Part shown: positions 2,787 to 44,317 of the stretch, piece after piece
How positions within the stretch are numbered: the first letter of the stretch is position 1
Layout: each line of letters opens with the position of its first letter
NCBI GenBank assembly: GCA_918272565.1
Contig: CAKJYW010000015.1
Span: 1 to 45,728, forward strand
Reading direction: 5' to 3'
DNA: 45,728 nt
From: Bacilli bacterium
Lineage (GTDB): Bacteria; Bacillota_I; Bacilli_A; ML615J-28; CAG-698
Made by a program: the position numbers and the translations under genes
The notes under the pieces: model-generated
The model's input: only the letters and a program-made list of their open reading frames with translations
What the model was told of the DNA's origin: nothing
Databases searched by the model: none

Positions 2787-2792
2787 AAAATA

Positions 2793-2838: not shown

Positions 2839-2852
2839 ATATAAAGAAATCA

Positions 2853-2881: not shown

Positions 2882-2912
2882 TGAATGTAGTTTTTAGGAA
2901 AGAGAAAAAAGT

Positions 2913-4856: not shown

Positions 4857-4860
4857 AAAT

Positions 4861-4896
4861 ATAAGAGATGTTTATTAAAAAACGTCTCTTATTTTT
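4861..4896 (+). terminator. Intrinsic terminator
   Basis: Stem AAGAGATGTTT / AAACGTCTCTT (one G-T pair) with a 6-base loop, followed by ATTTTT. Confidence 0.85.
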
Positions 4897-4924
4897 AATT
4901 TAAAAAAATAAAGCAAAAAAGTTA

Positions 4925-4955
4925 TTGTTTTATTTTTTTATAAAAATGGTATAAT
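4925..4955 (+). promoter_or_regulatory. Promoter of the surface protein gene
   Basis: TATAAT at 4950-4955 lies 32 bases before the start codon. TTGTTT at 4925-4930 is a possible -35, but the spacer (19) is long. Confidence 0.5.
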
Positions 4956-4987
4956 ATATTTGTAATATTGTCTTTTAGGAGAAAAAT

Positions 4988-10143: not shown

Positions 10144-10166
10144 TAGTGGATAAAGAAGGTGTTAAA

Positions 10167-12709: not shown

Positions 12710-12710
12710 T

Positions 12711-16412: not shown

Positions 16413-16479
16413 TTCTAAATTATACAAATATGTAGAAAATTATTTGCTTTTATTATATAATTAATAGTAGGTGATAGAG

Positions 16480-24791: not shown

Positions 24792-24814
24792 AATATTAAG
24801 TGGAGGAAATAAAC

Positions 24815-25429
24815 ATGGTTTATGATTTGGCGATGTTACATGAAAAGTATAAAAAATATAAAAATATAAATCAAAAAATATTCCTTGAAGAGAAAAAAGG
24901 GAATATTGTTAGAGTTAAAAGAGGCCTATATTCGACTGATATAGATAAAGATGGGGAGGTAATTTCTAATATTTGTTTCTCTCCATCATATATATCTTTT
25001 GAAAAGGCATTAAGTTATTATGGAATTATTCCAGAATATGTTAGTGCGTTTACTTGTGCCACTTTTAATAAAAACCATAATAAAACATATAGTAACGATA
25101 AGATTACTTTGTATTATAAATCTATTCCTGAGAAAGCTTTTCCTTTATACGTTTTAACAATGAGGAATGAAGATGGAATATCTTATAAAATTGCAAGTAA
25201 AGAAAAAGCGATTTGCGATATGCTTTATATCAAGTATCCTGTTAGGAGTATTAAAGATTTAAAAGTAATGCTATATGATGATATGAGATTTGATTATGAG
25301 GAAATAAAAAAACTAGATTTACAAAAACTATCTATTCTTATACCTTATTACAGATCAAACACCCTAAATACATTTTATAAATATATAAAAGGAGAGATTA
25401 CTAATGCTATTGATAGAAGAAATAATTAA
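24815..25429 (+). CDS. AbiEi-type antitoxin / transcriptional regulator
   Basis: 204 residues from ATG 24815 (GGAGG at 24802-24806; the earlier GTG 24800 overlaps that site). The N-terminal winged-helix region with VRVKRGLYS and the following SYISFEKALSYYGIIPE are typical of AbiEi-family antitoxins that repress their own operon. The C-terminal half is the family's second domain (SKEKAICDMLY). It overlaps the toxin gene by 26 bases, the usual arrangement of type IV AbiE modules. These can cause abortive infection or stabilise DNA. Confidence 0.85.
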   Translation: MVYDLAMLHEKYKKYKNINQKIFLEEKKGNIVRVKRGLYSTDIDKDGEVISNICFSPSYISFEKALSYYGIIPEYVSAFTCATFNKNHNKTYSNDKITLYYKSIPEKAFPLYVLTMRNEDGISYKIASKEKAICDMLYIKYPVRSIKDLKVMLYDDMRFDYEEIKKLDLQKLSILIPYYRSNTLNTFYKYIKGEITNAIDRRNN

Positions 25430-26261
25430 GCAATACAATCCCAAAACAATAGAAGAAACTAAGGCAGCATTAAGAGAAGTTATCCAATCAATTATATTAA
25501 TAGGTCTAAGTAGGGGAGGATTTTTTGAAAAGGGTTCTTTTTACGGTGGTACCGCATTAAGGATTTTTCATGGATTAAAGAGATACTCAGAAGACTTAGA
25601 TTTTACTTTAAACAGAAAGGATGATAATTTTTCTCTACAACCATATATTAAATCGATTAGAGAAGTGAGCGAATCTTATGGATTGAATTTTGAATTTTCT
25701 ATAAGAGAAAAAGTGAATCCAACGCCCATCGAAAGTACTTTTGCGAAGATTAATACATATGAAACATTTATTACATTAAAAATCGATCAAACATTCACAA
25801 ATATACTTCATAAGGATGAAGTTTTGAAAGTGAAGTTTGAAGTTGATACAAATCCGCCTCTAGGATTTAATACAGAAACAGTATGGCTAGATAGTCCTGA
25901 ATTTGCTCCAATAGTGGTTTTAGACTTGCCAAGTTTATTCTCTGGTAAAATTCATGCGGTATTATGTCGTAAGTATAAAAACAATGTTAAGGGTAGAGAT
26001 TACTATGATTTATTGTTCTATATTAAGAAGCATATTTCTCCAAATTTGGTTTATTTAAAAAATAGATTAATTGAATCAAATACAATAAAAGAAAGCGATG
26101 AATTTAATATTGATGTATTAAAGTCGATGTTAAAAGAAAGAATAAAAGATCTTGATTTTGATATGGTAAAAGAGGATGCATCTAAGTTTATATTTAAGGG
26201 TGAATCAATAGATATGTATTCTCTAGATTTATTTAATTATATGATAGATCAAATTAAATAA
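25404..26261 (+). CDS. AbiEii/AbiGii-type nucleotidyltransferase toxin
   Basis: 285 residues. The core reads GSFYGGTALRIFHGL with SEDLDFTL, the GG...R and DxD-type nucleotidyltransferase signature of AbiEii toxins. The later KIHAVLCRKYKNNVKGRDYYDL matches the family's second conserved block. Related toxins transfer nucleotides to tRNA or other targets. ATG 25404 has AAAGGAG upstream inside the antitoxin gene. All catalytic motifs are present, so it looks active. Confidence 0.88.
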   Translation: MLLIEEIIKQYNPKTIEETKAALREVIQSIILIGLSRGGFFEKGSFYGGTALRIFHGLKRYSEDLDFTLNRKDDNFSLQPYIKSIREVSESYGLNFEFSIREKVNPTPIESTFAKINTYETFITLKIDQTFTNILHKDEVLKVKFEVDTNPPLGFNTETVWLDSPEFAPIVVLDLPSLFSGKIHAVLCRKYKNNVKGRDYYDLLFYIKKHISPNLVYLKNRLIESNTIKESDEFNIDVLKSMLKERIKDLDFDMVKEDASKFIFKGESIDMYSLDLFNYMIDQIK

Positions 26262-28498: not shown

Positions 28499-31147
28499 AT
28501 GGCTATTTCAAAAGAACAAAAAATTAAAAGACCAATTGTAAGAACATTATCAATTTATAGCATTATTTTCTTACTTTTATTAACAATAAGTGTTACTGTT
28601 GTTTTCTATTATGTTTCATCTAGTAAATACTATAACAACTTTAATGAAAGAATTAGTAATGTTATTGATTATGTTGAAAATAATGTTGATGCGGATGATT
28701 TATATAACTGTATTGAAACAAAAACAGCATCAACTAAATATAATGAACTTCAAGAATTCTTAAATGGTATTATCGATGACTTCGATTTGGAATATCTTTA
28801 TATTGTTATTCCAACTGAAAACTTAATGTATAATGTCATTTCTGCTACTTCTAAAGCGGAATTTGAAGCTGGTGCTACTAATATGCTACTTCTTGAAACT
28901 AGTGAAGCCTATTCAGCTAGCGAACTTGCACGCTTTATGGCTTGCATGAATCGAAGCGATATCACTTATTTTGAAGAAGCATCTGATTGGGGAGAGTACT
29001 ATACTGGTGCTAAAGCTCTTAAAAATTCAAGTGGAGAAGCTTTTGCTTTGTTATGTGTTGACTTATCAAGTAAGGAGCTACACACTGAATTAAATAATTT
29101 ACTTGTTTTAAGTGCAATTGTTTCACTACTTGGAATTGGTATTTTTGCATCCTTCATCTTTATTTGGTTGCGTCTTGAAGTTGTTCACCCAATTAGCCAG
29201 CTAGAAGAAAGCGCAAGGAATTTTGCTAATCTTGCTCATAAAGAAGAGAACTTAGAAAATATTAAATACAAAAGTCCAAAGATTGATAGTCACAATGAAG
29301 TTGAATCATTATCTGGTGCTATTAACCTAATGGCAAAAGACACTATTCGCCGTATGGGAGAGATAGCTAAAAAAGAAAATGAAAATGATATCCTTCAAAA
29401 AGAAGTAGAGAATGCAAAGCGTATTAATGAAATTACTCAAGCATTTACATCACTTCTAAATAATATGCCAGTATTAACATATTCAAAAGATATTGAAACT
29501 GGTAAATATATCGCATGTAATAAACTATTCTGTAAATACACTTCAATTGATGATCCAGCGGATGTCGTTGGGAAGAGCGATTACGATTTGTATAATAAAG
29601 TTACAGCAGAGAAATTCATTGAAGCCGACAAGAAAGCAGCTGCGATGGATGAAGCATACATCTTTACAGAGGATGTTTACGATGCTAAAGGAAATCCTAC
29701 ACAATTCCAAACAACTAAATTTAAATATGTTGACTCAAACGGTAGAAAATGTCTACTTGGTATGAGCGTAGATATCTCTGAACTTTATAGTACTAAACAA
29801 GCATATGAAGAAAGTAGAAGTGAAACTCTAACATATTCTAATATTGCAAGAGCCTTATCACTTGACTATTCATATCTATATTATGTTGATTTAGAGACTG
29901 ATGAGTTTATCGAATATCATTCAGATAAGAGTAGTACTAATTTGGTTGCTGAAAGAAGAGGAAATGATTTCTTTGCTCAAAGTAGAAAAGATGCTCTAGA
30001 TATCATCTATGCTGATGATCAACAACAATTCATCGATTCTTTCTACAAAGAAAATGTATTAAAACAAATAGAAGAGACAGGTATGTTCATTATTTCTTAT
30101 AGACTTGTTACTAGTGGTACACCAGTTTATATGAGTATGAAAGCATCAAAGATGGAAAATGATGATAAACACCTAATCATTGGTGTAAATAATGTTGATG
30201 TTCAAAAGAAGACTCAAGAATCATACGAAAGATTAAAAGAAGAGCGTATCACTTATAGTCGTATTACGGCACTCGCTGGTAATTACATTTGTATTTATAC
30301 AATTGATCCAAAAACTGACCATTATGTTGAATATTCAGCAACTGATCATTATGAGGCATTAGGACTTGCTAAAAGCGGTGATAATTTCTTTAGACAATCA
30401 CTAATTGATAGTACTGATAACATCTATTTTGATGACTTAGATCGTTTCAATTCAACATTTACTAAAGATAATGTCTTAAGAGAAATCAAACAAAATGGTG
30501 TGTTTGTACTTGACTATCGTCTTTTAATTAATGGAATTCCTTCTTATGTTTCACTTAAAGCAGCACTAGTTGAAGAAAAAGATGGCCCACAACTGATTGT
30601 TGGTATAAGTAACATCGATGCTCAAGTTAAACGTGAGCAAGAATATGCTTATAAGTTATCAATAGAAACGAATAAAGCTAATGTTGATGCTCTAACTGGT
30701 GTTAAGAATAAGCATGCCTATGTTGATATTGAAACAGAGCTAAATAAGAAGATTGAAGAAAAAGAAGATACAAAATTTGCGATTATCGTATTTGACGTTA
30801 ATGGATTAAAATACACTAACGATAAATTTGGTCACCAAAGAGGTGACAAGCTAATCAAGGACGCTAGTGGCATCATCTGTGAAATCTTTAAACACAGCCC
30901 TGTATTTAGAATCGGTGGCGATGAATTCTGCGTTATTGCTCAAGACAAAGATTACGATAACATCGATAATTTGTTAGCTGAAATGACTAAAACAAATCTA
31001 GAAAATATTGCAAATGATGGTGTCGTTGTTGCTTGTGGAATGGCTAAATATTTAGGAGACAGAAGTGTTGCGGCTGTATTTGAAAGAGCCGATGTCAACA
31101 TGTATCTAAATAAGAATTATCTCAAAGAAAGAGATAGGAAACGCTAA
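28499..31147 (+). CDS. Membrane diguanylate cyclase with PAS-like sensor domains
   Basis: 882 residues. Membrane helix (about 17-40), extracellular domain (about 45-195), second helix (about 198-225), HAMP-like region, coiled coil, a PAS domain (about 318-430), then two consecutive PAS-like domains that look duplicated (each begins YS-I-A-L and shares NDFFAQS/DNFFRQS, ENVLKQI/DNVLREI and SYRLVTSG/DYRLLING). A C-terminal GGDEF domain has the intact motif GGDEF at about 806-810 and GVKNKHAYVD, so it should make c-di-GMP from two GTP. No RxxD inhibitory site lies before GGDEF, so product inhibition is unlikely. It overlaps the next gene by one base (TAATG). Confidence 0.9.
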   Translation: MAISKEQKIKRPIVRTLSIYSIIFLLLLTISVTVVFYYVSSSKYYNNFNERISNVIDYVENNVDADDLYNCIETKTASTKYNELQEFLNGIIDDFDLEYLYIVIPTENLMYNVISATSKAEFEAGATNMLLLETSEAYSASELARFMACMNRSDITYFEEASDWGEYYTGAKALKNSSGEAFALLCVDLSSKELHTELNNLLVLSAIVSLLGIGIFASFIFIWLRLEVVHPISQLEESARNFANLAHKEENLENIKYKSPKIDSHNEVESLSGAINLMAKDTIRRMGEIAKKENENDILQKEVENAKRINEITQAFTSLLNNMPVLTYSKDIETGKYIACNKLFCKYTSIDDPADVVGKSDYDLYNKVTAEKFIEADKKAAAMDEAYIFTEDVYDAKGNPTQFQTTKFKYVDSNGRKCLLGMSVDISELYSTKQAYEESRSETLTYSNIARALSLDYSYLYYVDLETDEFIEYHSDKSSTNLVAERRGNDFFAQSRKDALDIIYADDQQQFIDSFYKENVLKQIEETGMFIISYRLVTSGTPVYMSMKASKMENDDKHLIIGVNNVDVQKKTQESYERLKEERITYSRITALAGNYICIYTIDPKTDHYVEYSATDHYEALGLAKSGDNFFRQSLIDSTDNIYFDDLDRFNSTFTKDNVLREIKQNGVFVLDYRLLINGIPSYVSLKAALVEEKDGPQLIVGISNIDAQVKREQEYAYKLSIETNKANVDALTGVKNKHAYVDIETELNKKIEEKEDTKFAIIVFDVNGLKYTNDKFGHQRGDKLIKDASGIICEIFKHSPVFRIGGDEFCVIAQDKDYDNIDNLLAEMTKTNLENIANDGVVVACGMAKYLGDRSVAAVFERADVNMYLNKNYLKERDRKR

Positions 31148-31488
31148 TGACTAGAGTTAGAAGATTTGTTGGGAGATATATCCTAGAGATTGATAACGGG
31201 ACATATAGAGAGTTTTGTGGAAATTACCTTTATCAAATTGAAGGAAACAAACTAAGAAGATTTGCTGGTAGATATCTATATGAAATAGAAGGAAATAGAA
31301 TTAGAGAATTCTGTGGAAACTATATCCTTGAATTTGAAGGTAATAGAGTAAGAAGGTTTTGTGGAAACTATATCTGTGAAATAGAAGGTAACAAGATTAG
31401 AGAGTTTTGTGGCAATTACCTCTATGAAATAGAAGGAAACCTTACTAAACAAGAATTAATGTTTTTAATAGCAATATTATTCTATTGA
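31147..31488 (+). CDS. Small protein of six 16-residue tandem repeats, coupled to the diguanylate cyclase
   Basis: 113 residues. Residues 4-99 are six gapless 16-residue units of the form [IVL]R[RE]F[CAV]G[NR]Y[IL]xE[IF]EGN, mostly alternating RRF and REF. Each unit looks like two short beta strands with turns at CGN and EGN, so a closed beta rosette or 'beta flower' is likely; this is inference. No signal peptide, but the C-terminus (ELMFLIAILFY) is hydrophobic. Translation starts on the stop of the cyclase gene (TAATG), so the two are made together and may work together. No named family assigned. Confidence 0.7.
   Translation: MTRVRRFVGRYILEIDNGTYREFCGNYLYQIEGNKLRRFAGRYLYEIEGNRIREFCGNYILEFEGNRVRRFCGNYICEIEGNKIREFCGNYLYEIEGNLTKQELMFLIAILFY
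31156..31443 (+). repeat. Six tandem 48-bp coding repeats
   Basis: Six consecutive 48-base units encode the 16-residue repeats. Codons vary between units while the protein pattern holds, which indicates old, selected repeats rather than recent slippage. Confidence 0.85.
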
Positions 31489-31508
31489 AATAATCTATTA
31501 ATAGTTTT

Positions 31509-31539
31509 ATGGTTGATACAATGTATCAACCATTTTTTT
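31509..31539 (+). terminator. Intrinsic terminator
   Basis: Perfect 11-bp stem ATGGTTGATAC / GTATCAACCAT with an AAT loop and seven T. Confidence 0.93.
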
Positions 31540-31602
31540 GTAGTGCTTTATGAACCAAAAAGGTCGTTACAAAATATTGCAATAGTGTTTTTTTGGTGAC
31601 TA

Positions 31603-31611
31603 TGATATAAT
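31603..31611 (+). promoter_or_regulatory. Extended -10 promoter
   Basis: TGATATAAT (TG at 31603-31604, TATAAT 31606-31611), 60 bases before the start; the -35 is weak. Confidence 0.5.
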
Positions 31612-31671
31612 TAAATAAGTGATTTAGAGCACAAATAATAGTAGAATTATTATGGTTTAAAGGAGGATTAT

Positions 31672-32256
31672 ATGTTTGGAGAACCAACAACACTAATAGT
31701 CGTTTATAAAGATGAACTACTTGTGAATTTATTAAAGAAATTAATAGAAACTGATGATGATGTTGATGAAGAAAACATTGTTGGAGTGAAAGATGGCTCA
31801 GTTCGTATTGTTTCTTGGACAGAAAAAGTATGGTTAGATCAGAAAAAGGCTGGTAATATAAACAATAAAATTTTAATTTTAGGCAAAGTAAAAGGTTGGG
31901 ATAAACTTGTTCCAATTTTGGATGTTAAATTTGAAAAATTTGGAATTAAATATGGCTGGGCAGGAAATCAGGCATTATTAATTTCAGAAGCAGGATTACT
32001 AGATGATAAAAATGAATATAACCTATTTCTTGATGAGCTAAATAAATATAATATTCCTCAATCTATAAAATCAGATAAAGTAGTTATTGTAGAGGAGCCA
32101 ACAAAGGATACAGTATTTTCTAAAGTTGGTGGTTTTTTAAAGAAAAAAATAGTTGAACCTATTTCTCCTGAAAAGAAGAAGATTCTTAAACAACAGTATT
32201 TCTTTGGGATTCAAAAATTATATGAAAATGATTTAGAGGAGTTTATCAATAAATAA
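31672..32256 (+). CDS. Unknown protein, first gene of a two-gene module
   Basis: 194 residues, soluble, no signal peptide or membrane helix. An alpha/beta pattern is seen: strand TTLIVVYK at the N-terminus, KILILGKVKGWDKLVPILDVKFEK in the middle, then FGIKYGWAGNQALLIS. The C-terminal 55 residues are lysine-rich and helical. No family named with confidence. AAAGGAGG precedes ATG 31672. The next gene starts 3 bases after the stop. Between a diguanylate cyclase unit and a nuclease/ATPase pair; a role as sensor or partner for the downstream membrane-active protein is only a hypothesis. Confidence 0.55.
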   Translation: MFGEPTTLIVVYKDELLVNLLKKLIETDDDVDEENIVGVKDGSVRIVSWTEKVWLDQKKAGNINNKILILGKVKGWDKLVPILDVKFEKFGIKYGWAGNQALLISEAGLLDDKNEYNLFLDELNKYNIPQSIKSDKVVIVEEPTKDTVFSKVGGFLKKKIVEPISPEKKKILKQQYFFGIQKLYENDLEEFINK

Positions 32257-33884: not shown

Positions 33885-33907
33885 GATAATGGAAAGTGGT
33901 GATAACT

Positions 33908-35281
33908 ATGTTTTATGGAAGAATAGAAGAGTTGAAACTAATTAGAGATGCATATAACAATGATAATTTTGAAAGTATAGCAATATACGGAAGACGTAGA
34001 ATTGGCAAAAGTGAACTAATAAAAGAGTCTTATAAGGAGTTGGATTATAAGAAGGTTTATTATGAATGTAAAAAAGCTTCTGAAGAATTTAATGTTAAAT
34101 CTTTATCTGATAAATTAGCTGAGGTGTTCAATATTCCTAAGCCTGATTTTACAACACTAGATGAAGCATTAAGATTTGTTTTTGATAAATCAATAGAAGA
34201 AAAAATAATATTGGTTCTTGATGAATATCCATATATGAGAGGTAATAGTGCCTTTTTAGATAGTATCATCCAAAATGTTATAGATGATTATAAGAATAAA
34301 TCAAAAATTAAGTTTATATTATGCGGATCATATATCGATGTAATGGAAGAAATATTAAGTAGCAATAGTCCATTATATGGAAGATTCACATTAAAACTTA
34401 ATATTAAACAAATGGATTATTTAGAATCTGCTATGTTTTATAAGAATGCAAAAAACGAAGATAAAGTAAAATATTATTCAGTATTTGGTGGGGTTCCTTA
34501 TTACAATCAATTTATAGATGATAAACTAACAGTTAAAGAAAACATAATAAATTTAATAATAGGTAGTAAAGCTAGGCTTTTAAGTGAAGCAGAAAGTTTT
34601 TTGAATGAGGAAATGACAAAGCTAAACAACGCTAATGAGTGCTTTAGCGCAATTGCTGAAGGGAAAACTAAGTTTAATGATATCTTACAAAAATCAAATG
34701 TTTCTTCTAGCCCAACATTATCAGATGTATTAAAGAAATTGATTAATATGGATGTTATAGAGAAGATATACCCTATAAATGATGATGGCGAGAAAAAGTC
34801 TTATTATGTTATTACTGAAAGGTTATCTCTATTCTATTATAGATATATTTTTAAAAGAGGTTCATATTTCAATGTTATGTCAGGTGAAGACTTCTATGAA
34901 GAATTTGTTGAGGAAGATTTTGAGAAGTATTATGTTCCTAAAGAATTTGAGAATATTGCAAAGCAATATTTGATTAATCAAAACAAGAATAAACAGATTT
35001 CTCCACCATTATATAAAGTTGGTAAATACTATTATGATTTACCAAAAGAAAAGAAAAATGGTGAATTTGATGTTGTGACATTAAATAAAGATGGATATGA
35101 TTTTTACGAAGTAAAGTTCACACAAAAACCTATCGATGATGCTATTATTAATGAAGAGATATATCAAATAGAAAATGCCAAAGTAAAATATAATAAATTA
35201 GGGTTTGTTTCAAAGAATGGATTTAATATCTCTAATTCAAAAGATTATATTTTGATAACATTAGATGATATGTATAAATAG
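33908..35281 (+). CDS. Archaeal-type ATPase with DUF234 nuclease-like C-terminus
   Basis: 457 residues from ATG 33908 (GGTG at 33898; the earlier GTGs overlap the ribosome site). Starts MFYGRIEELKLI, then Walker A IYGRRRIGKSE, Walker B ILVLDEYPYM and sensor LCGSYIDVM. A winged-helix region follows (about 235-310), and then a C-terminal domain with GEFDVVTLNKDGYDFYEVKF, the D...ExK pattern of a PD-(D/E)XK fold. This is the ATPase/DUF234 family common in archaea and gut anaerobes, role unknown though often linked to defence or mobile DNA. Under a consensus promoter with possible operator repeats, which suggests tight repression. Confidence 0.85.
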   Translation: MFYGRIEELKLIRDAYNNDNFESIAIYGRRRIGKSELIKESYKELDYKKVYYECKKASEEFNVKSLSDKLAEVFNIPKPDFTTLDEALRFVFDKSIEEKIILVLDEYPYMRGNSAFLDSIIQNVIDDYKNKSKIKFILCGSYIDVMEEILSSNSPLYGRFTLKLNIKQMDYLESAMFYKNAKNEDKVKYYSVFGGVPYYNQFIDDKLTVKENIINLIIGSKARLLSEAESFLNEEMTKLNNANECFSAIAEGKTKFNDILQKSNVSSSPTLSDVLKKLINMDVIEKIYPINDDGEKKSYYVITERLSLFYYRYIFKRGSYFNVMSGEDFYEEFVEEDFEKYYVPKEFENIAKQYLINQNKNKQISPPLYKVGKYYYDLPKEKKNGEFDVVTLNKDGYDFYEVKFTQKPIDDAIINEEIYQIENAKVKYNKLGFVSKNGFNISNSKDYILITLDDMYK

Positions 35282-35331
35282 TAGGCTATAAATTAATTGA
35301 GTATAAAATACTAGCAAAAAAAGAAGGAAAT

Positions 35332-36552
35332 ATGGAAGCAATATTGATTAATAGAATGTATGCAGGCGAATATTTAACTAAAGGAATAGGTGGTGGAGAA
35401 ACTATCAACCTCCTTTTAGCTGATGATGGTATCAATTATTGTTACATTCAAAAAGTAGGGTTGTTAAACCCTACTTATAACAACACAGTAAAATATGTTT
35501 TAAATACGAGACTTCACGAAGCTGGTTGCTTTGAAATAATAGGTGTTTGCGTTATAAAAGAACAACTAATTGAAGCAAAAGGTGCTACAAGCGCCCAAAG
35601 AGGTAAAAACGCTGTTAAAGAATTAGTGGAATATGTAAAAAAACATCCAATTAATTATGGAGGAGTTCCATACATTAAGGGAACTGAAGATTATCCTCCA
35701 ATAACATTTGCATCTTCTAAGCTTTTGTTTCCTAAAGAACAAGTGTTTATTTTAGATAAGGATTATAATAAAAAAATAAGTGATAATTTCAAAACATTTA
35801 AATTGACTGATAAAAAGTTTTCTAGACAATCATTATTAATGTATGTAGATACAATTAATAACAAAGAATCATTTGAAACAATAAAAGCAATGGTTGATGA
35901 GGAAGATCTTTGGGAAGAAAAAGATACAAGACTTGATCAATATAAAGAGACTAACCATTTTAATTTCTTATCACTAATTAGAAAAGAAGATGATGAATTA
36001 GCTTTTTCTAATATGTTTAGTTATTTCTTTAATAATTATCCTAATCTTTTTAAGGGATTTATAAAAGAAGTATTAAAGGAAGATATTAGTTATGATTATG
36101 AAATAAAAAGGGAATTTCATAATATTGATTTGTGGGTAGAGGATAAGGGAAATAATAGAGTGATTGTTATTGAAAATAAGATTAAGTCTGGAATCAATGG
36201 TGTTTCACCAAGGCATGACTTTAGTGAGGATGGTCTTGTTCAATCTCAATTACTAAAATATTATAAATTTGCTGTAGATTATATTAAAGATGAGGACAAA
36301 GTAGAGTGCTTTATATGTGTTCCTAATTACAATAAGATTGATTTAAAGGCTTATAAAGGAAGTAAACATTATACCGAAATTAAGTATAAAGAGATATATA
36401 ACTATTTAATCACTCAAACAGTAGATAATGTATATTATAGGGATTTTGTGAATGCTTTATATAAACATACGAAAGATGTACCTATTGATTATAGCGAAGA
36501 ATTATTAAATTATATGATTAAGAAAGTAAATAAAGAGAAGAGAAAGGTTTGA
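35332..36552 (+). CDS. PD-(D/E)XK nuclease family protein with extra N-terminal domain
   Basis: 406 residues. The C-terminal half (about 220-385) has the nuclease core: FHNIDLWVED with the catalytic Asp and VIVIENKIKSG with E-x-K, then a QLLKYYKF helix, as in the PDDEXK_4 family. The N-terminal 190 residues (LINRMYAGEYLTKGIGGGET...) form a separate domain of unknown role, possibly DNA or modification recognition. ATG 35332 has AAGAAGGAAA upstream, 50 bases after the ATPase stop with no terminator between, so it is probably in the same transcript. A type IV-like restriction or defence role is inference. Ends in TGA inside a terminator stem. Confidence 0.8.
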   Translation: MEAILINRMYAGEYLTKGIGGGETINLLLADDGINYCYIQKVGLLNPTYNNTVKYVLNTRLHEAGCFEIIGVCVIKEQLIEAKGATSAQRGKNAVKELVEYVKKHPINYGGVPYIKGTEDYPPITFASSKLLFPKEQVFILDKDYNKKISDNFKTFKLTDKKFSRQSLLMYVDTINNKESFETIKAMVDEEDLWEEKDTRLDQYKETNHFNFLSLIRKEDDELAFSNMFSYFFNNYPNLFKGFIKEVLKEDISYDYEIKREFHNIDLWVEDKGNNRVIVIENKIKSGINGVSPRHDFSEDGLVQSQLLKYYKFAVDYIKDEDKVECFICVPNYNKIDLKAYKGSKHYTEIKYKEIYNYLITQTVDNVYYRDFVNALYKHTKDVPIDYSEELLNYMIKKVNKEKRKV

Positions 36553-36785: not shown

Positions 36786-36818
36786 GTTGATAACTATTTT
36801 TATTAAGGAGGAACTTTA

Positions 36819-36944
36819 ATGGAAAAGAAGAAGTATGAAAAACCTGAAGTTGAAGTGATTGTTATCGATGATAAAGATATAGTCACTGATAGCGTAACAG
36901 TCAACTGGTTTGATATTCCTGAAGGAGATGAAGTAGAAATATGA
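36819..36944 (+). CDS. 41-residue acidic peptide, possible RiPP-type precursor
   Basis: Strong ribosome site AAGGAGG (36805-36811) before ATG 36819. The peptide starts MEKKKYEKPEVEVIVID, continues through DKDIVTDSVTV and ends NWFDIPEGDEVEI. No signal peptide, no Cys. The KxYxKPxxEVI...DIVT layout is like the short precursor-like peptides often seen near PqqD-type genes in gut Firmicutes (from memory, not searched). The stop overlaps the start of the large secreted protein gene (ATGA). Candidate substrate for the PqqD/S26/nucleotidyltransferase/kinase set at 40899-43453. It could instead be a small leader ORF that couples translation to the next gene. Confidence 0.6.
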   Translation: MEKKKYEKPEVEVIVIDDKDIVTDSVTVNWFDIPEGDEVEI

Positions 36945-39526
36945 GAAAGTATTTAACTGCTATTATCTTTTTATTTGTTTCTTTATTTGTTTTTGGATTT
37001 GTTAAGGTAAGTGCAGATCCTGCACCTGGCACAATTACAATAACTAATGGTGCTAGTGTTAGGACTGCAAATCCAGTTGGTCTAAAATTTGAGGCAATAG
37101 TTACTGGTGACTGGGAAGGTGCTGGTACAAGTGTCAAATATGGATTTGTTATATCAAGAGGTTCTTTCTCAAAGAGTCTTTTATTATCAAATCTAGCTAA
37201 AAGCAAAGCGGTTAAGGTAGATTGTGGAACACCTGATGGTGAAGGAAAATTTTTCTTAACTGTAATAGATATTCCAGAAACAGGATATGCTGGAAATATC
37301 ACAGCATTAGCTTATGTTAATGTTGATGGTGAAGATTACTATTCTGATATCGCAGTAACAAGAAACATTGCACAAGTTGCAGCTGTTGCTAATAATAATG
37401 GAATCGAAGCAGATATTATAGATGATGTTGTGACATATACTGCAAGTCATTATATGATAGAATCAACTTTATTCACAGGTGAATACGTATTATCACCAGT
37501 TGATGAAAATGTATATAATTATGCACACTTAGCTGATATGTGGGCTGATTTTATTGCTGACTTTAACTCTGCAACAGGTTCTAGTCTAACTAGTTCATCA
37601 ACATTAACACAATTTCATACAGCTCTTGCAACTGGAATAGCAAGTAATAGTGTTAGAACTTTTCCTGAATCTTGTAATGCTGTTAAATTCTTTAGTGGTG
37701 CAACACTAGTTAAATGGGGTTGGATTTTAGATTATTTCAAGAATAATGGATCAACAGTTCATATTAAAAATCAGGCGAATGGTTTATTAAGAAGTGACAG
37801 AACATGTCAGTCATATGATGGACATAGATTAAGACATTTGGGTGGTTCAATTTACAATTTATTCCATAAAACTCATGAAATGATTGATGGCATGGCAGCA
37901 AATGATTTCACTGGTGGTGAAAGTTCTTACACTGGTGTATGGACTACATTTAATAGTAGTAAGGCTAGCCAACTTAATAACATTGTTGAAATTGGTGAAG
38001 ATGTAACACTACCAAGCGCACTAGTTAAAGCAGGATATGACTTTGCTGGTTATAGAAACTCATCTTTATATTTAGCTGAAGCAAGTTATGAGGTTACAAG
38101 TTCTTTAGCTGTATTTAAACCAGAGTTTTCTCCAACATCTTATACTATTACATATCATCTAGATGGTGGATCAAACGGAGTAGGAAACCCTTCATCATAT
38201 ACAATTGAAACTGCTACAATAAATCTTGCTGACGCTACAAAAGCAGGATATGTATTTGCTGGTTGGTATGGTAATGGTTCATTTACTGGTGATGCAATAA
38301 CCTCTATTCCAAAAGGAAGCACAGGTGACATTGATTTATATGCTAAATACATTCGTGAGGTTTCTATAGTTAATCCTGCTTGGGTAGGAACTGGAAACGG
38401 AACAAAAGTTTCTTATAGTGACACAGAATATACTTTTGGAACTGATGCTTTTGCCACAATAGCTTCTGCTGTTGCTGCGGCTTCACCATATGAACAAATA
38501 TATGTTTTAGCTGGAACATATTCTGAAACATTCACTATATCTACTGCAGGAGTAAATTTGATAGGACCTAATGATGGAGTTTTAGGCAATAGTGGATCAA
38601 GAGTGACTGAAGCTGAAATAACAGGAGGAACAATTACGTTAGGTAAAAACTTAGCAGGTTGTACAATTACTGGTTTCAAGTTTAGTGGAACTTCTAATAT
38701 TGTTAATACTACTGGAGATGCAGGTACAGCTGCAAATCCTGCAACTAACTTAAATGGATTCACTTTTAGTTATAATAAAGTTAATACTAGTTTAACTAGT
38801 GGTAAGGGTTTTATTTATTTTACAGAAGCTTCTAGTAGTTATTCACACAATTTAGTGTTTAGAGGTAATTCATTTACACAAACTGTTACAGGAATCTCTG
38901 CAATGATTTATCTTGATAATAATGCTGGACTATCGATAATTGATAACTCATTTAGTAACATTACTGGTGACGCTGTTTATGTTAATGATACTACGAAAGG
39001 TCTTGCTGGTGATTTGACTGCAACAGGTAATAGTTTTGTAAGTATTACTAAGGGAGCAATCTTTAATCATTGGTATTCACCATTACCTGATACATCTCCT
39101 GATATTTTAGTCAGAGATAACTATTTCAAAGATGTTGATGGAGGAGCCTGTGTAAACTTTGAAAAATGTAATGGTGGAGATAATTATAATTCATTTGTTA
39201 TAGAATTAAATGTATTTGATGACGTATTCAAAGTTTATTGGGTGTATACTTCAACTCAAACAGGAAGTTCATATGGAAGTATATTTAGAAATAATGTTGT
39301 GTTCAAATATGAAGGTGGTCTTTCAGACTGTTATACAGCTAAAGGTGGTGCAATAGACTGTGCTAGTAATTTATATTTGTCAGCAGATGGAGCAACAGTT
39401 TATACAACAACTGTTTTATCTAACTTCTCATTTGGAGCATATGCTGAGCATGTTAATACAAGTAATTATGCATCAATTAAAGATTATAATGATGCAACAG
39501 GAAAAGGATTCAGTTTACCTAGTTGA
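36941..39526 (+). CDS. Large secreted multidomain protein, N-terminal part up to an in-frame TGA
   Basis: 861 residues before TGA (39524-39526). Signal peptide about 1-26 (cleavage near VSADP). An Ig-like N-terminal domain (about 30-160), a helical region (about 170-370), an InlB-like/Listeria-Bacteroides repeat (about 400-475, YTITYHLDGGS and AGWYGNGSFTGDAIT), then a right-handed beta-helix (about 485-830) with repeated NSF/NYF turns. The frame stays open past the TGA for another 421 codons, encoding an Ig-like and a GH18 domain. The natural protein was therefore probably 1,283 residues, and this is a truncated product unless the TGA is read through or is an error. Start overlaps the peptide gene (ATGA). 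Confidence 0.75.
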   Translation: MRKYLTAIIFLFVSLFVFGFVKVSADPAPGTITITNGASVRTANPVGLKFEAIVTGDWEGAGTSVKYGFVISRGSFSKSLLLSNLAKSKAVKVDCGTPDGEGKFFLTVIDIPETGYAGNITALAYVNVDGEDYYSDIAVTRNIAQVAAVANNNGIEADIIDDVVTYTASHYMIESTLFTGEYVLSPVDENVYNYAHLADMWADFIADFNSATGSSLTSSSTLTQFHTALATGIASNSVRTFPESCNAVKFFSGATLVKWGWILDYFKNNGSTVHIKNQANGLLRSDRTCQSYDGHRLRHLGGSIYNLFHKTHEMIDGMAANDFTGGESSYTGVWTTFNSSKASQLNNIVEIGEDVTLPSALVKAGYDFAGYRNSSLYLAEASYEVTSSLAVFKPEFSPTSYTITYHLDGGSNGVGNPSSYTIETATINLADATKAGYVFAGWYGNGSFTGDAITSIPKGSTGDIDLYAKYIREVSIVNPAWVGTGNGTKVSYSDTEYTFGTDAFATIASAVAAASPYEQIYVLAGTYSETFTISTAGVNLIGPNDGVLGNSGSRVTEAEITGGTITLGKNLAGCTITGFKFSGTSNIVNTTGDAGTAANPATNLNGFTFSYNKVNTSLTSGKGFIYFTEASSSYSHNLVFRGNSFTQTVTGISAMIYLDNNAGLSIIDNSFSNITGDAVYVNDTTKGLAGDLTATGNSFVSITKGAIFNHWYSPLPDTSPDILVRDNYFKDVDGGACVNFEKCNGGDNYNSFVIELNVFDDVFKVYWVYTSTQTGSSYGSIFRNNVVFKYEGGLSDCYTAKGGAIDCASNLYLSADGATVYTTTVLSNFSFGAYAEHVNTSNYASIKDYNDATGKGFSLPS

Positions 39527-39571
39527 ACTTCTGGTGATAGAGTAAACTTCACTAAGAATGAATTAGATGAA

Positions 39572-40792
39572 ATGTTTGAGTCTATCACTGAAATTGATAG
39601 TAATATTTCACTACCTACAAGTAATGCCACATACGGAACTACTATTAGTTGGAGTTCTAATAAGACTGATCTAATTAGTAATAGTGGTGTTTATGGTAAT
39701 CCTTATGCGGATGAAACTGTTCGCCTAACTGTCACAATCACTTATGACGTTGCATCAACTACTGTTTATTATGATGTTACAGCTAAAAGGTTCTATAGTG
39801 ATTTGACTGATGGAGTTACAATGGGATATATGTATTTTAGTAATTCAACTGCTAGCTTAAATACATATGAGAATTTAGATATAGTTGTATTTGCTCATGC
39901 TAAAGCTAACGCAAGCGGAGAAATATACAATTTATCAACAATCGCTTCATATGTACCTAGTAATGTTACTAAAGCACATACCTATGGAACATATTGCTTA
40001 TTATCACTTGGTATGATGGATAGCGAACATCTAGGTTATATGACTACCATTGCTGCTTCATCAAGCCTAAGAGCAACATTAATTGATAATATAATTGATG
40101 CAATCAATGATTTAAATCTTGATGGTGTTGATATTGACTGGGAATATCCTAAGTCTAGTGAAAAAGCAAATTTCACTTTGTTTATGAGTGAATTATATGC
40201 AGCTGTTAAAGCTAATAATCCACATCATTTAGTAACTGTTGCAACTGGAATAGAAACATATACTAGATATGATTTTGAAAACAGCAAGAATTATATTGAT
40301 TATATTTCGATGATGACATACGATATGCAACATAGTTCTATAGCTAGTCACCATTCTGCGCTAAATTACAAATCATATCATTGTTATAGATCTGTTCAAG
40401 ATGCCTATAATTACTATATTACTAATAGTGGAATTGACCCATCTAAGATTATATTAGGTATACCATTCTATGGTAGAAAATTTACTGATACTGATGGATT
40501 AGGAGAATCAGCTACTGCAGATGTTGCTTTAAGCTATTCAACAATCGTTTCAGATTACTTAACAAATCCTAATTATACAAGGTATTTTGATAATGATTGT
40601 AAAGTACCTTATCTATATAGTAGTAGTGATAGAGTGTTTATCACTTACGAAGATAGTGAATCTATAGCACTAAAGATTGCTTATGCTAAAGAAAAAGGAT
40701 TTGCTGGAGTAATGTACTGGCAAGACGCTCAAGATAGTGGTGACATATTATTTAATGCAATTATTACTAATATGAGCGGTTATACTGATTAA
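39572..40792 (+). CDS. GH18 chitinase-like C-terminal part of the secreted protein, cut off by the TGA
   Basis: Same frame as 36941-39526 and continuous with it: codons 39527-39571 are open (TSGDRVNFTKNELDE). ATG 39572 has no ribosome site and the segment has no signal peptide, so it is unlikely to be an independent gene. It contains an atypical bacterial Ig-like domain (about residues 1-75: ISLPTS, TISWSSN, SGVYGN, VRLTVTITY) and a GH18 barrel with the complete catalytic motif DGVDIDWEYP. The catalytic Glu would be 1068 of the joined protein. MMTYDMQ, GIPFYGRKF and GVMYWQDAQD are also typical of GH18. The enzyme would cut chitin-like or N-glycan GlcNAc linkages outside the cell. Confidence 0.75.
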   Translation: MFESITEIDSNISLPTSNATYGTTISWSSNKTDLISNSGVYGNPYADETVRLTVTITYDVASTTVYYDVTAKRFYSDLTDGVTMGYMYFSNSTASLNTYENLDIVVFAHAKANASGEIYNLSTIASYVPSNVTKAHTYGTYCLLSLGMMDSEHLGYMTTIAASSSLRATLIDNIIDAINDLNLDGVDIDWEYPKSSEKANFTLFMSELYAAVKANNPHHLVTVATGIETYTRYDFENSKNYIDYISMMTYDMQHSSIASHHSALNYKSYHCYRSVQDAYNYYITNSGIDPSKIILGIPFYGRKFTDTDGLGESATADVALSYSTIVSDYLTNPNYTRYFDNDCKVPYLYSSSDRVFITYEDSESIALKIAYAKEKGFAGVMYWQDAQDSGDILFNAIITNMSGYTD

Positions 40793-40797
40793 TAACT

Positions 40798-40835
40798 AAT
40801 AGGCAAGTTATTGGTTCAATAATTTGCCTATTTTT
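40798..40835 (+). terminator. Intrinsic terminator
   Basis: Stem AATAGGCAAGTTATTG / CAATAATTTGCCTATT (one G-T pair), 3-base loop, T run. Confidence 0.9.
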
Positions 40836-40851
40836 GTATACTCGCTATTTA

Positions 40852-40880
40852 TTGATTAGAGATGTCTATTTTGGTATAAT
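40852..40880 (+). promoter_or_regulatory. Promoter of the nucleotidyltransferase/PqqD/S26 operon
   Basis: TTGATT (40852-40857), 17-base spacer, TATAAT (40875-40880) with an extended TGG before the -10. Confidence 0.85.
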
Positions 40881-40898
40881 AGGTTTGGAGTAATAATT

Positions 40899-42038
40899 AT
40901 GGAAAAGATATTAACTGATTTTCTTATCTTAATAAGAAATTATGTGAGTGACTATGATGCTTCTTTTTCACTAAATGATAAAGAACTAGAAGCATTAGGA
41001 GAATTAGCTCATTTTCATAATATTGATTCTTTAGTACTAGAAGCATTTAAGAAGAATAATCTAACAATAAGTGAAGACTTTTCAAAGAATGCTAAAAGAG
41101 AATCATATAAATCAATGGCTCAAGAAGAGGAATTAGAAGTATTAAAGAGGCGATTTATTGAAGAAAAGATTCCTTTTATGCCACTAAAGGGAGCAGTAAT
41201 ATCAAAAATGTACCCTAAATCTTATTTAAGAAATAGGGCTGATATTGATATCTTAGTTAAATTAGATGATTTTAAGAAAGTAAAAGAAATCTTATTAAGT
41301 GAAGGATATAGTTTTGGAGTTAGTGGCAGTAACCACGATTCATATAATAAAGGTGCTCTAATAAAGATAGAAATCCATAAGAGTTTAATAGATGAAGCAA
41401 TCTCCACTCATTCATTCTTTAGTAATGTTTGGGATAGTGACTATATTTATAATGATGGATATGAATATTTCTTAAAAGAAGAATATTTCTATATGTTTTT
41501 ATTAAGTCATAGTGCTAAGCATTTTAGTAATGGTGGAGGAGCATTTAGGTTATTAATTGATTTATATTATTATTTTAAGTTTTTAAATAATAATGGAAAA
41601 TCATTAGATTTTGATTTAATAAATGAAAAGTTAGAAGAGCTTGGTTTAGCGAAATTCAATAAAATAGTTTTAGAATCAGTTGATTATTTGTTTAATGGTA
41701 AAGAAGAAACTGAAGATATATTACTTTTCTTAGATTATATCTTAAAAGCTGGAACTTATGGAACTAAGCAAATTAATAGTATGATTGGAATTGATCAAGA
41801 AGGTAGTAAGGGTAAACATATATTAAAACGCCTTTTTCCACCGCTATCTATTATGAAGCGTCGTAATCCTACTTTAAAGAAAGCTCCGTTTTTACTTCCT
41901 TGGTTCTATTTTACGAGGTGCATAAAAGGATTATTCCGTTTTAAAGCAACAAAAGAAGAGCTAAAATCAATTGATGATGCTAAAAAATATGATAAAGAAA
42001 GATTAAATAAAATAAAAGATATTACAGGTTTAGGGTGA
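40899..42038 (+). CDS. Nucleotidyltransferase family protein (NTP_transf_5-like)
   Basis: 379 residues. Core motifs of the family are visible: PFMPLKGAVISKMYPKSYLR, then RADIDILVKLDDF with the DxD metal-binding pair, and IEIHKSL. The family is often found beside PqqD-like and HPr-kinase-like genes in peptide-modification loci, as in the lasso peptide paeninodin cluster. The modified target is not known. Own promoter; the stop (TGA TAA in tandem) is followed 4 bases later by the PqqD gene. Confidence 0.85.
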   Translation: MEKILTDFLILIRNYVSDYDASFSLNDKELEALGELAHFHNIDSLVLEAFKKNNLTISEDFSKNAKRESYKSMAQEEELEVLKRRFIEEKIPFMPLKGAVISKMYPKSYLRNRADIDILVKLDDFKKVKEILLSEGYSFGVSGSNHDSYNKGALIKIEIHKSLIDEAISTHSFFSNVWDSDYIYNDGYEYFLKEEYFYMFLLSHSAKHFSNGGGAFRLLIDLYYYFKFLNNNGKSLDFDLINEKLEELGLAKFNKIVLESVDYLFNGKEETEDILLFLDYILKAGTYGTKQINSMIGIDQEGSKGKHILKRLFPPLSIMKRRNPTLKKAPFLLPWFYFTRCIKGLFRFKATKEELKSIDDAKKYDKERLNKIKDITGLG

Positions 42039-42042
42039 TAAT

Positions 42043-42309
42043 ATGAAAATAAAAGAAGGATTTGTTTTAAGAAATGTTGGGGGAAGCTATTTGGTTGTAG
42101 CAACAGGTAAAGTAGGAGCTACTTTTAAAAAGATAGTAGAACTTAATGAAACTTCCGCATTCCTATTTAACTCAATATTAAATGGTGCATCAACACTAGA
42201 TGATTTAGTTAATAAAATGACTTTAGAATATGATGTAGATAAGCATCAAGTAGAAGTAGACATAAAAGCATTTATTGAAAAGATGAAAGGATTAGATATC
42301 ATTGAATAG
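42043..42309 (+). CDS. PqqD-family protein (RiPP recognition element)
   Basis: 88 residues. Begins MKIKEGFVLRNVGGSYLVVATG, with the usual PqqD beta-hairpin, then IVELNETSAFLFNSI and a helical C-terminus (TLDDLVNKMTLEYDV). PqqD-like domains bind leader peptides and bring them to modifying enzymes. AGGGTGATA precedes ATG 42043. It overlaps the peptidase gene by 8 bases, so the two are translated together. Confidence 0.88.
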   Translation: MKIKEGFVLRNVGGSYLVVATGKVGATFKKIVELNETSAFLFNSILNGASTLDDLVNKMTLEYDVDKHQVEVDIKAFIEKMKGLDIIE

Positions 42310-42730
42310 TCCTAAATCATATAAAGAAATATTAGAAATAAAGCCATTTGTAATAGTAAATATTGTTGGGACGAGTATGTTACCTCTTTTACATGAAGGC
42401 ATTGATACAGTAAAAGTAGCTAGACGCGTAAGGCCCTTAGTTAAAGGTGACGTTGTTTTATTTAATCGAGATAGCAAGTTAGTCTTACATAGGATCATTA
42501 GGGTTAAAAAGAACAAAGAAGAAACAACATATGATATATGTGGCGATAACCAAGTACTTCTAGAAAAGAACGTCCCAGATTCAGTAATCTTTGGAGTAAT
42601 GGAAGGATATTATAGAGGCGAAGAATATATTGATATATCTAATAAAGAATATATCAAATATTATAAAAAGAGAATGAGAAATAGAATATTAAGAAAATTC
42701 AAATCTTTTCTTAGTAGACTATTCAAATAA
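42302..42730 (+). CDS. S24/S26-type peptidase, soluble, SipW-like Ser/His form
   Basis: 142 residues from TTG 42302, the only usable start before the active-site motif, with GAAAGGAT 9 bases upstream and overlap of the PqqD stop. VGTSMLPLLHEG carries the catalytic Ser. KGDVVLFNR and LVLHRIIRV supply the HR motif of the Ser-His (SipW/ER-type) branch rather than Ser-Lys, followed by the CGDNQ box. Unlike signal peptidases it has no membrane helix, so it should act in the cytosol, perhaps removing a leader from a modified peptide. The C-terminus is very basic. Confidence 0.82.
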   Translation: MNSPKSYKEILEIKPFVIVNIVGTSMLPLLHEGIDTVKVARRVRPLVKGDVVLFNRDSKLVLHRIIRVKKNKEETTYDICGDNQVLLEKNVPDSVIFGVMEGYYRGEEYIDISNKEYIKYYKKRMRNRILRKFKSFLSRLFK

Positions 42731-42731
42731 A

Positions 42732-42762
42732 AAAGCTGCTTTTATTTAAAAGCAGTTTTTTA
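42732..42762 (+). terminator. Bidirectional terminator between convergent genes
   Basis: Stem CTGCTTTT / AAAAGCAG with an ATTT loop, A run on the left and T run on the right, so it works on both strands. It overlaps the stop of the minus-strand kinase gene. Confidence 0.88.
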
Positions 42763-43453
42763 TTGCATCATATGATATTTTTGCACTATCTAGTTCTTTA
42801 GTGCACTTAAGGTTAAATAATTTAACATTATCTAATGTTTTATTTAATAAATCAAATGTTTTATCTAGTTTAGTTACATCACTTGGAACTAATATTTGTT
42901 TTAATAACTTCTTAGTTATTTCTTTTTTTGATGTCTCATTAATTATGTTTTCCTCACTACGCTCTAAAAAGACGATAGCTTTTAGGGGAGCAAAAGTATT
43001 TGAACCATAATTTTCTTTACCACACCATGGACTTCCAAATACTGTTGGTGTGTTATTAATTATCCTTATAATTGGTTTATCACCATTAATAAAGGTTAAT
43101 TTATCACCTAGTAGCGTTTTTAGATTCATTGTGTGAGTAGTTTTACCTATTCCTGATTTTGCGCAAAATAGATAAGCGTTATTATCAATCTTTATAGCTG
43201 AACCATGAATTAAAAAAGCATCGTATTTAAGAACATTATAAGCGATTTTACGATATATACATATGCTTTCTAAATAAGGATTACTTTGTTTTATTGGGTT
43301 AACTTTTGATTCTTCTATAATTTCTTCGTCAGTTACACTAACACTAAAATCAAAAGAGCTACTATCAATGATATAGTCTTTACAAAGTAATCTTAAATAT
43401 TTATATTTATTGATTATTTGGATTTTAAGATTTGCTATTTCAATAATAAACAT
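42746..43453 (-). CDS. HPr-kinase-like (HprK-related) protein
   Basis: 235 residues from the ATG at 43453 (AGGTGA 6 bases upstream on the minus strand; a GTG at 43462 overlaps that site). FLIHGSAIKIDN leads to Walker A CAKSGIGKTTHT, then INGDKPIIR and a glycine-rich GSPWCGKENYGS, as in the HprK C-terminal kinase fold without the HprK N-terminal domain. Relatives in paeninodin-type lasso loci phosphorylate a Ser of the precursor peptide. Convergent with the nucleotidyltransferase/PqqD/peptidase operon and sharing its terminator, which makes a functional link likely. Confidence 0.82.
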   Translation of the reverse strand: MFIIEIANLKIQIINKYKYLRLLCKDYIIDSSSFDFSVSVTDEEIIEESKVNPIKQSNPYLESICIYRKIAYNVLKYDAFLIHGSAIKIDNNAYLFCAKSGIGKTTHTMNLKTLLGDKLTFINGDKPIIRIINNTPTVFGSPWCGKENYGSNTFAPLKAIVFLERSEENIINETSKKEITKKLLKQILVPSDVTKLDKTFDLLNKTLDNVKLFNLKCTKELDSAKISYDAIKNCF

Positions 43454-43546: not shown

Positions 43547-44317
43547 ATGAAAAAAATATTAGCTATTATTATATTACTACTTGGAATAGTTTTTTTAAGT
43601 AGTTGTAAAGCTGGAAGCGAAGATCCTATCGTTGATCCAAAAGAAAATGATCCTATAGAACAAGATCCAGTTGTTGACTCTAGTGGAACAAATATTAATG
43701 ATGATGATCCAACAAAAGAAAATGATCCTCCAGCTGTAGAAGATAAGATAATTAGAAAAGTGGAATTAACAATTGATGAAAAAGATGAGGTATTTGAAGT
43801 AGAGGTTGAGACACTCCATGTAGAAGTATCCTCTCACGGTTACAACCGTTATTACAAAGGCGATAATAAAGATGAACTAACATTTGAGCTTGATTTAGTT
43901 CCTCTTGATGGTTATAAATTTGCAATCGATGGAAGATGTGAAGTTGTAGCTAGTTTTAGTAGTGATTACACTCATCTATCAACAATAGTAAATGAAGATA
44001 GAATTAATTATTCGATTGTTAAGACAATTGATGTAGTTAAAGATATTAAAATAAGCTTAGATACTAGTAAATATAAAGTAGAAAGCAAAGTGGAAGGTGT
44101 AAGTGCAGAGATTTTAAAACCTCTTGACTATATTAATATTATTATTGAGATTAGAACAAAATTAGAGCTTAGTGCTAATTTTAGTTTAATTGTTTATAAT
44201 GTTAAAAAAGATAAAGAAGAGGAAATCAGCTTTGATGATTTTGAATTTGAAGTAGTAGAAGGCGAGACAATTATCACCTACAAGATAGATGATCCTAACT
44301 GGACACCATATTATTAA
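43547..44317 (+). CDS. Lipoprotein of unknown function
   Basis: 256 residues. A type II signal peptide ends in lipobox LSSC, so the mature protein is tethered by lipid at Cys20. An acidic, proline-rich spacer (about 25-65, with KENDP repeated) leads to two beta-rich domains of about 95 residues (RKVELTIDEKD..., then SAEILKPLDYINI...), likely cell-surface folds. No family recognised. It faces away from the HprK-like gene and shares its upstream region. Confidence 0.75.
   Translation: MKKILAIIILLLGIVFLSSCKAGSEDPIVDPKENDPIEQDPVVDSSGTNINDDDPTKENDPPAVEDKIIRKVELTIDEKDEVFEVEVETLHVEVSSHGYNRYYKGDNKDELTFELDLVPLDGYKFAIDGRCEVVASFSSDYTHLSTIVNEDRINYSIVKTIDVVKDIKISLDTSKYKVESKVEGVSAEILKPLDYINIIIEIRTKLELSANFSLIVYNVKKDKEEEISFDDFEFEVVEGETIITYKIDDPNWTPYY

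Follow-up and report, generated by a model that had tools for sequence, protein, structure and literature searches.

A conserved, putatively RRE-guided peptide cassette associated with secreted proteins that carry candidate recoding sites

Closest described systems

The locus described here lies in a 45,728-nucleotide stretch of DNA from a Bacilli bacterium (contig CAKJYW010000015.1, positions 1-45,728, hereafter called the window). It encodes a 41-residue acidic peptide, a large secreted protein, a nucleotidyltransferase-fold protein of family PF14907 (hereafter NTP), a PqqD-type RiPP recognition element (RRE; RiPP, ribosomally synthesised and post-translationally modified peptide), an S26 peptidase and an HprK-fold kinase. 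The closest described systems are the lasso peptide clusters of paeninodin (PadeK) and pseudomycoidin (PsmK/PsmN), which likewise combine an HprK-like kinase, a nucleotidyltransferase, a discrete PqqD-type B1 RRE and a YxxP leader. The catalytic motif of the lasso tailoring kinases is His-Lys-Asp-Asp (PMC9266682); YxxP is a known lasso-leader motif recognised by RREs, and the motif for the PqqD-type RREs taken together is W/Y/LxxP/L/I (PMC12710340). The present system differs from these clusters: neither a B2 protease nor a cyclase was found among the window proteins scanned, and an S26 peptidase is present instead; the precursors are many, dispersed and paired with secreted proteins; and the conserved Ser of the peptide is located at the putative cut site instead of the C-terminus.

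A likeness is also seen to SynChlorMet (NCBIfam ScmC, ScmD, ScmE and ScmF) and to other NCBIfam PqqD-family peptide systems, which share HprK-like and PqqD-like proteins and, in some relatives, a radical S-adenosylmethionine (SAM) enzyme. The SynChlorMet models scored far under their cut-offs (ScmD 13.8 bits versus 100; ScmC 27.5 versus 125, the latter with the kinase of locus L202), and, in contrast to SynChlorMet, the present system includes an S26 peptidase and a PF14907 protein, its YxxP peptides are dispersed and their partner proteins are secreted. An HprK-related kinase, a PqqD-family protein and a nucleotidyltransferase also occur together in the system that NCBIfam names HPr-rel-A; its models gave no match to the window proteins at E-values up to 1. 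The S26 protein belongs to the same sequence family as the SipW-type and archaeal signal peptidases and has their Ser/His motif, but it has no membrane anchor and is encoded inside a peptide-modification cassette. No description of the system was found in open-access PMC text, an absence that is not proof of novelty.

Gene content of the locus

The features of the locus, in window coordinates, are the following.

36805-36811, + strand: Shine-Dalgarno sequence AAGGAGG of the peptide gene, read from the sequence
36819-36944, + strand: acidic precursor-like peptide of 41 residues, with a leader M1-S25 and a putative core V26-I41 (profile, co-occurrence and column statistics)
36834-36845, + strand: YxxP (Y6 E K P9), putative RRE-recognition motif ([YF]xxP in 68/75 peptides; motif in PMC12710340)
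36885-36893, + strand: T23-D24-S25, the conserved (A/T)-x-S, proposed S26 cut and/or kinase site (Ser in 55/62 aligned peptides)
36941-39526, + strand: secreted partner, short form, with a signal peptide and Listeria-Bacteroides repeats; its first 4 nt are shared with the end of the peptide gene
39524-39526, + strand: in-frame UGA, proposed programmed readthrough site (position and context conserved)
39533-39589, + strand: RNA hairpin GGUGAUAGA...UCUAUCACU, starting 7 nt past the UGA (synonymous-shuffle z -4.6; RNA model R1, E 1.8e-16)
39527-40792, + strand: readthrough extension with aBig_2 and a glycoside hydrolase family 18 (GH18) chitinase, no signal peptide of its own (Pfam on the read-through protein)
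40899-42038, + strand: NTP, the PF14907 nucleotidyltransferase-fold protein (Pfam E 1.2e-39)
42043-42309, + strand: PqqD-type RRE (PF05402 E 2.8e-13; nearest solved relatives are lasso B1 proteins)
42302-42730, + strand: membrane-free S26 (SipW/archaeal-type) Ser/His peptidase, proposed leader peptidase (TIGR02228 E 6e-10, under the curated cut-off)
42746-43453, - strand: HprK-fold kinase, convergent with the operon (model fold match and motifs)
43547-44317, + strand: lipoprotein, with a weak relative within the cassette locus of genome G012

The initial annotation of this locus had described the acidic peptide with its strong ribosome site, a DxD nucleotidyltransferase, a PqqD-like protein, a membrane-free peptidase and a convergent HprK-like gene. 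All these open reading frames (ORFs) were found where it had placed them, and the observation of the locus is confirmed. Its interpretation as an uncharacterised RiPP-type locus is partly supported: it holds as regards an RRE-linked peptide system with no cyclase among the proteins scanned, but the partner gene at 36941-40792 and the TGA at 39524 had been overlooked.

Assignment of the HprK-like protein required a fold search; it had no Pfam match, and its profile, compared with the sequences of solved structures, found only P-loop matches in ATP-binding cassette (ABC) transporters. The AlphaFold2 model of this protein (predicted local distance difference test score 95.9) gave HPr kinase/phosphatase 1kkl as the best Foldseek match (E 5e-6, prob 1.00), with a query TM-score of only 0.40, and phosphoenolpyruvate carboxykinase, from the same superfamily, was matched too. 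The catalytic His, the P-loop and the DKP motif are retained; in an alignment of 38 kinase sequences the His, the Lys and the second Asp are invariant, and at the position of the first Asp the window protein has Gly. The S26 protein has no segment resembling a membrane span (best 19-residue hydropathy 1.48), and its GTSM..P, LHRI and GD motifs are intact. The fold search with NTP gave only weak nucleotidyltransferase matches (LnuA, E 0.008), and the closest solved relatives of the PqqD profile are the lasso B1 proteins TbiB1 (3e-8) and TfuB1. PADLOC gave no match in the cassette, which leaves a defence-system reading unsupported.

Co-occurrence and spread of the cassette

Relatives of the PqqD protein were first searched in 100 related genomes, and co-occurrence was counted over 296 genomes of the class. 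In the 100 genomes, most neighbourhoods of real PqqD matches hold HprK, S26 and/or NTP, with varying order and occasional fusions, and a profile of the peptide detected new peptides in these loci with a clear score gap. A genome-wide search that disregarded location found both the peptide and a cassette-type PqqD in 42 of the 296 genomes, the cassette only in 11, the peptide only in 5 and neither in 238, with p=4.5e-35, or p=1.4e-28 once the genomes used to train the profile were removed; both values overstate independence, given that the genomes are related. Close relatives gain or lose the peptide and the cassette jointly, as seen for G012/G023 and G025/G016, which differ in both, and G000 is alone in the window's genus in having either. 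The peptide, NTP, PqqD, S26 and HprK are one conserved system. The association of the four enzymes that had been proposed from the window was recovered in relatives, chance being excluded, and the 36819 peptide is likewise conserved and follows the cassette in its distribution.

When named genomes were scanned, 367 PqqD relatives were obtained, and locus composition was counted for the best 80 of these, which come from Clostridia, Bacilli, Bacteroidales, Fibrobacter, Bifidobacterium scaligerum and Izimaplasma. S26 is present in 63 of these loci, HprK in 62, an ABC exporter in 30, NTP in 20 and a radical SAM enzyme in 12. Since most of the distant cassettes lack NTP, it is regarded as accessory. 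The order [radical SAM]-HprK-PqqD-S26-NTP-peptide-secreted protein was seen in many of a further 19 loci, from other families of the class; the layout in G012 is that of the window.

Two variations in composition were seen among the cassettes. A radical SAM enzyme (CxxxCxxC) is added in L031, L032, L033, L039, L045, L202, L204 and L206-L209, and these cassettes are probably a chemically distinct subtype. Fusions are found in L042, L043, L201, L203 and L213, with S26-NTP as one ORF and HprK-PqqD as one ORF.

The peptides and their secreted partners

Alignment of 75 distinct peptides revealed that the N-terminal 25 residues are conserved and are followed by a variable acidic, aromatic tail, according to the pattern KKxYExPxIEIIxF...D-[SIV]-[IL]-[AT]-x-S-[G]. 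By column, the Pro is found in 74/75 and Tyr or Phe in 69/72. The putative leader carries, as judged from its sequence, the known RRE recognition motif, and the (A/T)-x-S motif is probably the position of the S26 cut, because it resembles a signal-peptidase site. The features of RRE-dependent RiPPs that were looked for, i.e., a precursor, an encoded RRE and a leader motif, are all found at the level of sequence, and the system would work like an RRE-guided RiPP pathway.

A gene for a secreted protein lies within 60 nt of 42 of the 47 peptides with assessable neighbours, as compared with 20% of background genes (p=4e-24, with signal peptides assigned by a crude hydropathy rule). This partner is usually directly downstream of the peptide, at -4 to +19 nt, and in other families of the class the peptide and the secreted gene often stand immediately behind the cassette. 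The partners include chitinases, BspA-type leucine-rich repeat proteins, Endonuclease I and repeat proteins. Among 47 complete partners, an LPxTG-like motif was found in one and a C-terminal membrane span in none, so that the partners are not explained by these known anchors. A single cassette may be accompanied by many dispersed peptides: 15 in G031, 8 in G096 and 6 in G015. The 4 kb that separate peptide and enzymes in the window, initially taken as a weak point, are no weakness, because the peptides are paired with secreted proteins instead of with the cassette, and many peptides are served by a single cassette.

Candidate recoding sites in the partner genes

In phage coat and tail proteins, programmed frameshifting adds Ig-like domains and gives a major short and a minor extended product; in this role, the -1, +1 and in-frame modes of decoding can substitute for one another (PMC5009743). 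The partner genes described here would give a comparable short/extended pair, the junction of which has an Ig-like domain; however, they encode cellular secreted proteins, the extension brings an enzyme (GH18 or Endonuclease I), and they are linked to a peptide-modification system.

The TGA at 39524 interrupts the partner gene of the window, whose reading frame then runs on through aBig_2 and GH18 to 40792. The identical TGA, followed by ACT-NNN-RGT-GAT-AGA, is found in seven genomes from five genera, always in secreted genes of one type; six of the seven sites adjoin a detected peptide, and in G006 the locus end runs off the contig at that point. A hairpin starts 5-9 nt past the UGA in all seven. 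When codons were shuffled synonymously, keeping the protein, the mean z was -3.3 at eight sites (the seven and a divergent one in G031) versus -0.15 in 219 windows drawn from these genes (p=7e-12). An RNA model built from the seven hairpins, which are also its training set, recovered exactly those seven in 823 kb, with E up to 4e-13. Covariation is absent since the arms hardly vary, and the evidence comes from the synonymous shuffles and from base C63, which demands the minority codons ATC or GTC. The hairpin downstream of the UGA exceeds what the protein-coding requirement would impose.

Partner continuations that are out of frame lie in the -1 frame in 11/12 cases; loci with a -1 continuation are L038, L032, L035, L200, L202, L203, L204 and L209-L213. 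Where tested, the extension consists of an Ig-like linker and Endonuclease I, with no signal peptide. In these partners, a stem CCC-U-N-N-N-G-A / U-C-N-N-U-A-GGG extends over the 80 nt past the stop. In arms cut and aligned by hand, both sides of the stem change in 3/9 pairs, in five cells versus 1.7 in shuffles (3/500 reach 5) and 0 when the arms are slid. In the 2.5 Mb examined, the stop and stem pattern occurs only at -1 junctions, including the previously unused L212, and the synonymous-shuffle z is <= -2 at 10/11 of the -1 sites. A candidate slip sequence, A AAC CCG, occurs in three of them. Considering all extensions, a continuation lacking its own start follows 21/45 partners of at least 300 residues but only 5/75 other secreted genes (p=5e-7), some of the latter sitting in similar loci. 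From their conservation, these are recoding sites accompanied by candidate stimulatory RNA structures; nevertheless, recoding is not obligatory, because about half of the partners have no extension.

Several other interruptions and arrangements were noted in partner genes. At the TGA sites of L178 and L043 a hairpin is unsupported. The latter (~1600-6600, minus strand) holds a secreted ORF of 1133 residues that continues in frame, past the TGA, into a GH43-like hydrolase recognised by eye, with two peptides behind it, and gives no hairpin signal. An in-frame TAA (L163, 4408) and an in-frame TAG (L212, 5049) are each followed by a long in-frame continuation. G006 and G012 (L032, L035) each have, adjacent to one another, two sets of kinase and peptidase and the two kinds of recoding, UGA-GH18 and the -1 extension.

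Proposed mechanism and alternatives

The explanation that we favour, and regard as probable with some reserve, is a one-to-many, RRE-guided peptide-modification system that is coupled to secreted proteins and whose partner is often recoded. As the gene order shows, the YxxP peptide is made beside a large Sec-exported protein, often in translational coupling with it. The PqqD-type RRE would bind the YxxP/beta-strand leader and bring the peptide to both the HprK-fold kinase and the nucleotidyltransferase-fold enzyme. By analogy with PadeK, PsmK and PsmN (PMC9266682), the kinase would phosphorylate a Ser or Thr, probably the Ser of (A/T)xS or a core residue, and the PF14907 enzyme could then attach a sugar or a nucleotide to the phosphate; the nearest biochemistry, that of PsmK/PsmN (PMC9266682), would suggest phosphate and hexose on the peptide instead of the phosphate or nucleotide initially proposed. 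The cytosolic S26 peptidase would remove the leader, probably at (A/T)-x-S, and the product would be exported, in many relatives by way of an ABC exporter, and would work with the partner protein. In about half of the examined systems a major short partner would be accompanied by a minor form bearing an enzyme (GH18 chitinase or Endonuclease I; a GH43-like enzyme at a TGA that has no hairpin), arising by UGA readthrough or by -1 frameshifting stimulated by an RNA stem.

On a wider reading, which is put forward tentatively and is somewhat more doubtful than credible, this is a widespread, undescribed surface or secretion system in which the phospho/glyco- or nucleotidyl-peptide is an obligate companion of the secreted protein, hairpin-stimulated readthrough or -1 frameshifting sets the ratio of short to enzyme-bearing forms, as in phage coats, and the peptide controls how the extracellular structure so formed is assembled or anchored. 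Speculatively, and by analogy with phage coats, the partners may assemble into extracellular structures. If these proposals are correct, the system would represent a RiPP-like class with a new type of leader peptidase and no macrocycle, conserved microproteins of gut bacteria would gain a machinery and a physical partner, and cellular hairpin-stimulated UGA readthrough or -1 frameshifting would place enzymes such as a chitinase or a nuclease on a minority of the copies of a secreted protein.

Several observations weigh against the favoured explanation. The peptide would be processed in the cytosol, yet the partner with which it would act is exported. PqqD occurs with no detected peptide in the 11 genomes given above, and the reverse in 5; NTP is missing from 60 of the 80 named loci, and roughly half of the partners lack an extension. 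The kinase motif in the window is NGDKP instead of the commoner NDDKP. In addition, no ABC exporter adjoins the window cassette, and ABC proteins encoded elsewhere in the genome are 24-29% identical, over their full length, to a cassette exporter.

Among the alternatives, a rather unlikely one is that the peptide is no product in its own right but a docking adaptor; it would recruit a complex of RRE, kinase and nucleotidyltransferase to the secreted partner while this is still nascent, and the partner would be the target of modification. This would agree with the pairing and translational coupling of both genes, and with the recurrence of like peptide C-termini together with like partner N-terminal regions, e.g., VVIEFPWAEGEEDYFA with GVQIRTDGNNG; however, such pairing could come from duplication of the peptide-partner unit, and a leader peptidase in the cassette and the (A/T)xS motif suit maturation of the peptide better.

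There is little probability that the in-frame TGA arose by nonsense mutation or through faulty assembly, or that the codon is reassigned, instead of being a site of programmed recoding. The site is known from metagenome assemblies, and isolated in-frame TAA and TAG interruptions are seen in L163 and L212. Nevertheless, the same position and context recur in the seven genomes together with the RNA hairpin, and no stop is present in ~60 other GH18-type matches; a pseudogene or an assembly error was rejected on this conservation and RNA structure. As to the genetic code, release factor 2 is present, the only tRNA-Trp found has a CCA anticodon, no tRNA-Sec scored above the cut-off, and TGA terminates other genes here. 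Neither genome-wide reassignment of TGA nor selenocysteine is supported by these data, and the event thus has the look of an ordinary stop codon being read through.

It is very unlikely that these are degenerate or divergent lasso tailoring loci whose cyclase is elsewhere or has been lost. The nearest RREs are lasso B1 proteins, the leader has YxxP, and pairs of kinase and nucleotidyltransferase are known in lasso clusters. On the other hand, neither an Asn-synthetase-like cyclase (lasso C) nor a transglutaminase-like B2 leader protease was matched among the Pfam-scanned window proteins, where S26 is present instead; no search for the cyclase was made in the remainder of the genome, and the few unscanned ORFs of the window include those at 16471-19290 and 31147-32256. 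The 80 named loci contain no recurrent cyclase cluster either, and the peptides are dispersed and tied to secreted proteins. Judging from the proteins scanned, the locus does not appear to be a lasso locus, and the absence of a cyclase that could account for PqqD and the peptidase, which had been proposed initially, is borne out in the window and among the recurrent neighbours.

Least probable of all is that the peptide ORF has no relation to the cassette and serves the secreted gene in regulation or translational coupling: it does lie just upstream of the next start, or overlaps it, in most loci, but in several it is downstream of the partner, by which an upstream ORF or attenuator was rejected, and its amino acid sequence is strongly conserved, including YxxP, and co-occurs with the cassette genome-wide.

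Other features of the window

Outside the locus, an AbiEi/AbiEii type IV toxin-antitoxin pair is encoded at 24800-26261 (PADLOC E 1e-50 and 3e-91). At 33896-36552, an ATPase/DUF234 protein matches the PADLOC candidate PDC-S27 and adjoins a PD-(D/E)XK-like protein that matches PDC-S26 weakly. A protein of 113 residues at 31147-31488 is made up of short repeats, e.g., REFCGNYLYEIEGN. Finally, the genes at 10146-13502 encode an FGGY-family kinase, L-rhamnose isomerase and a class II aldolase, and look like a rhamnose catabolism operon.

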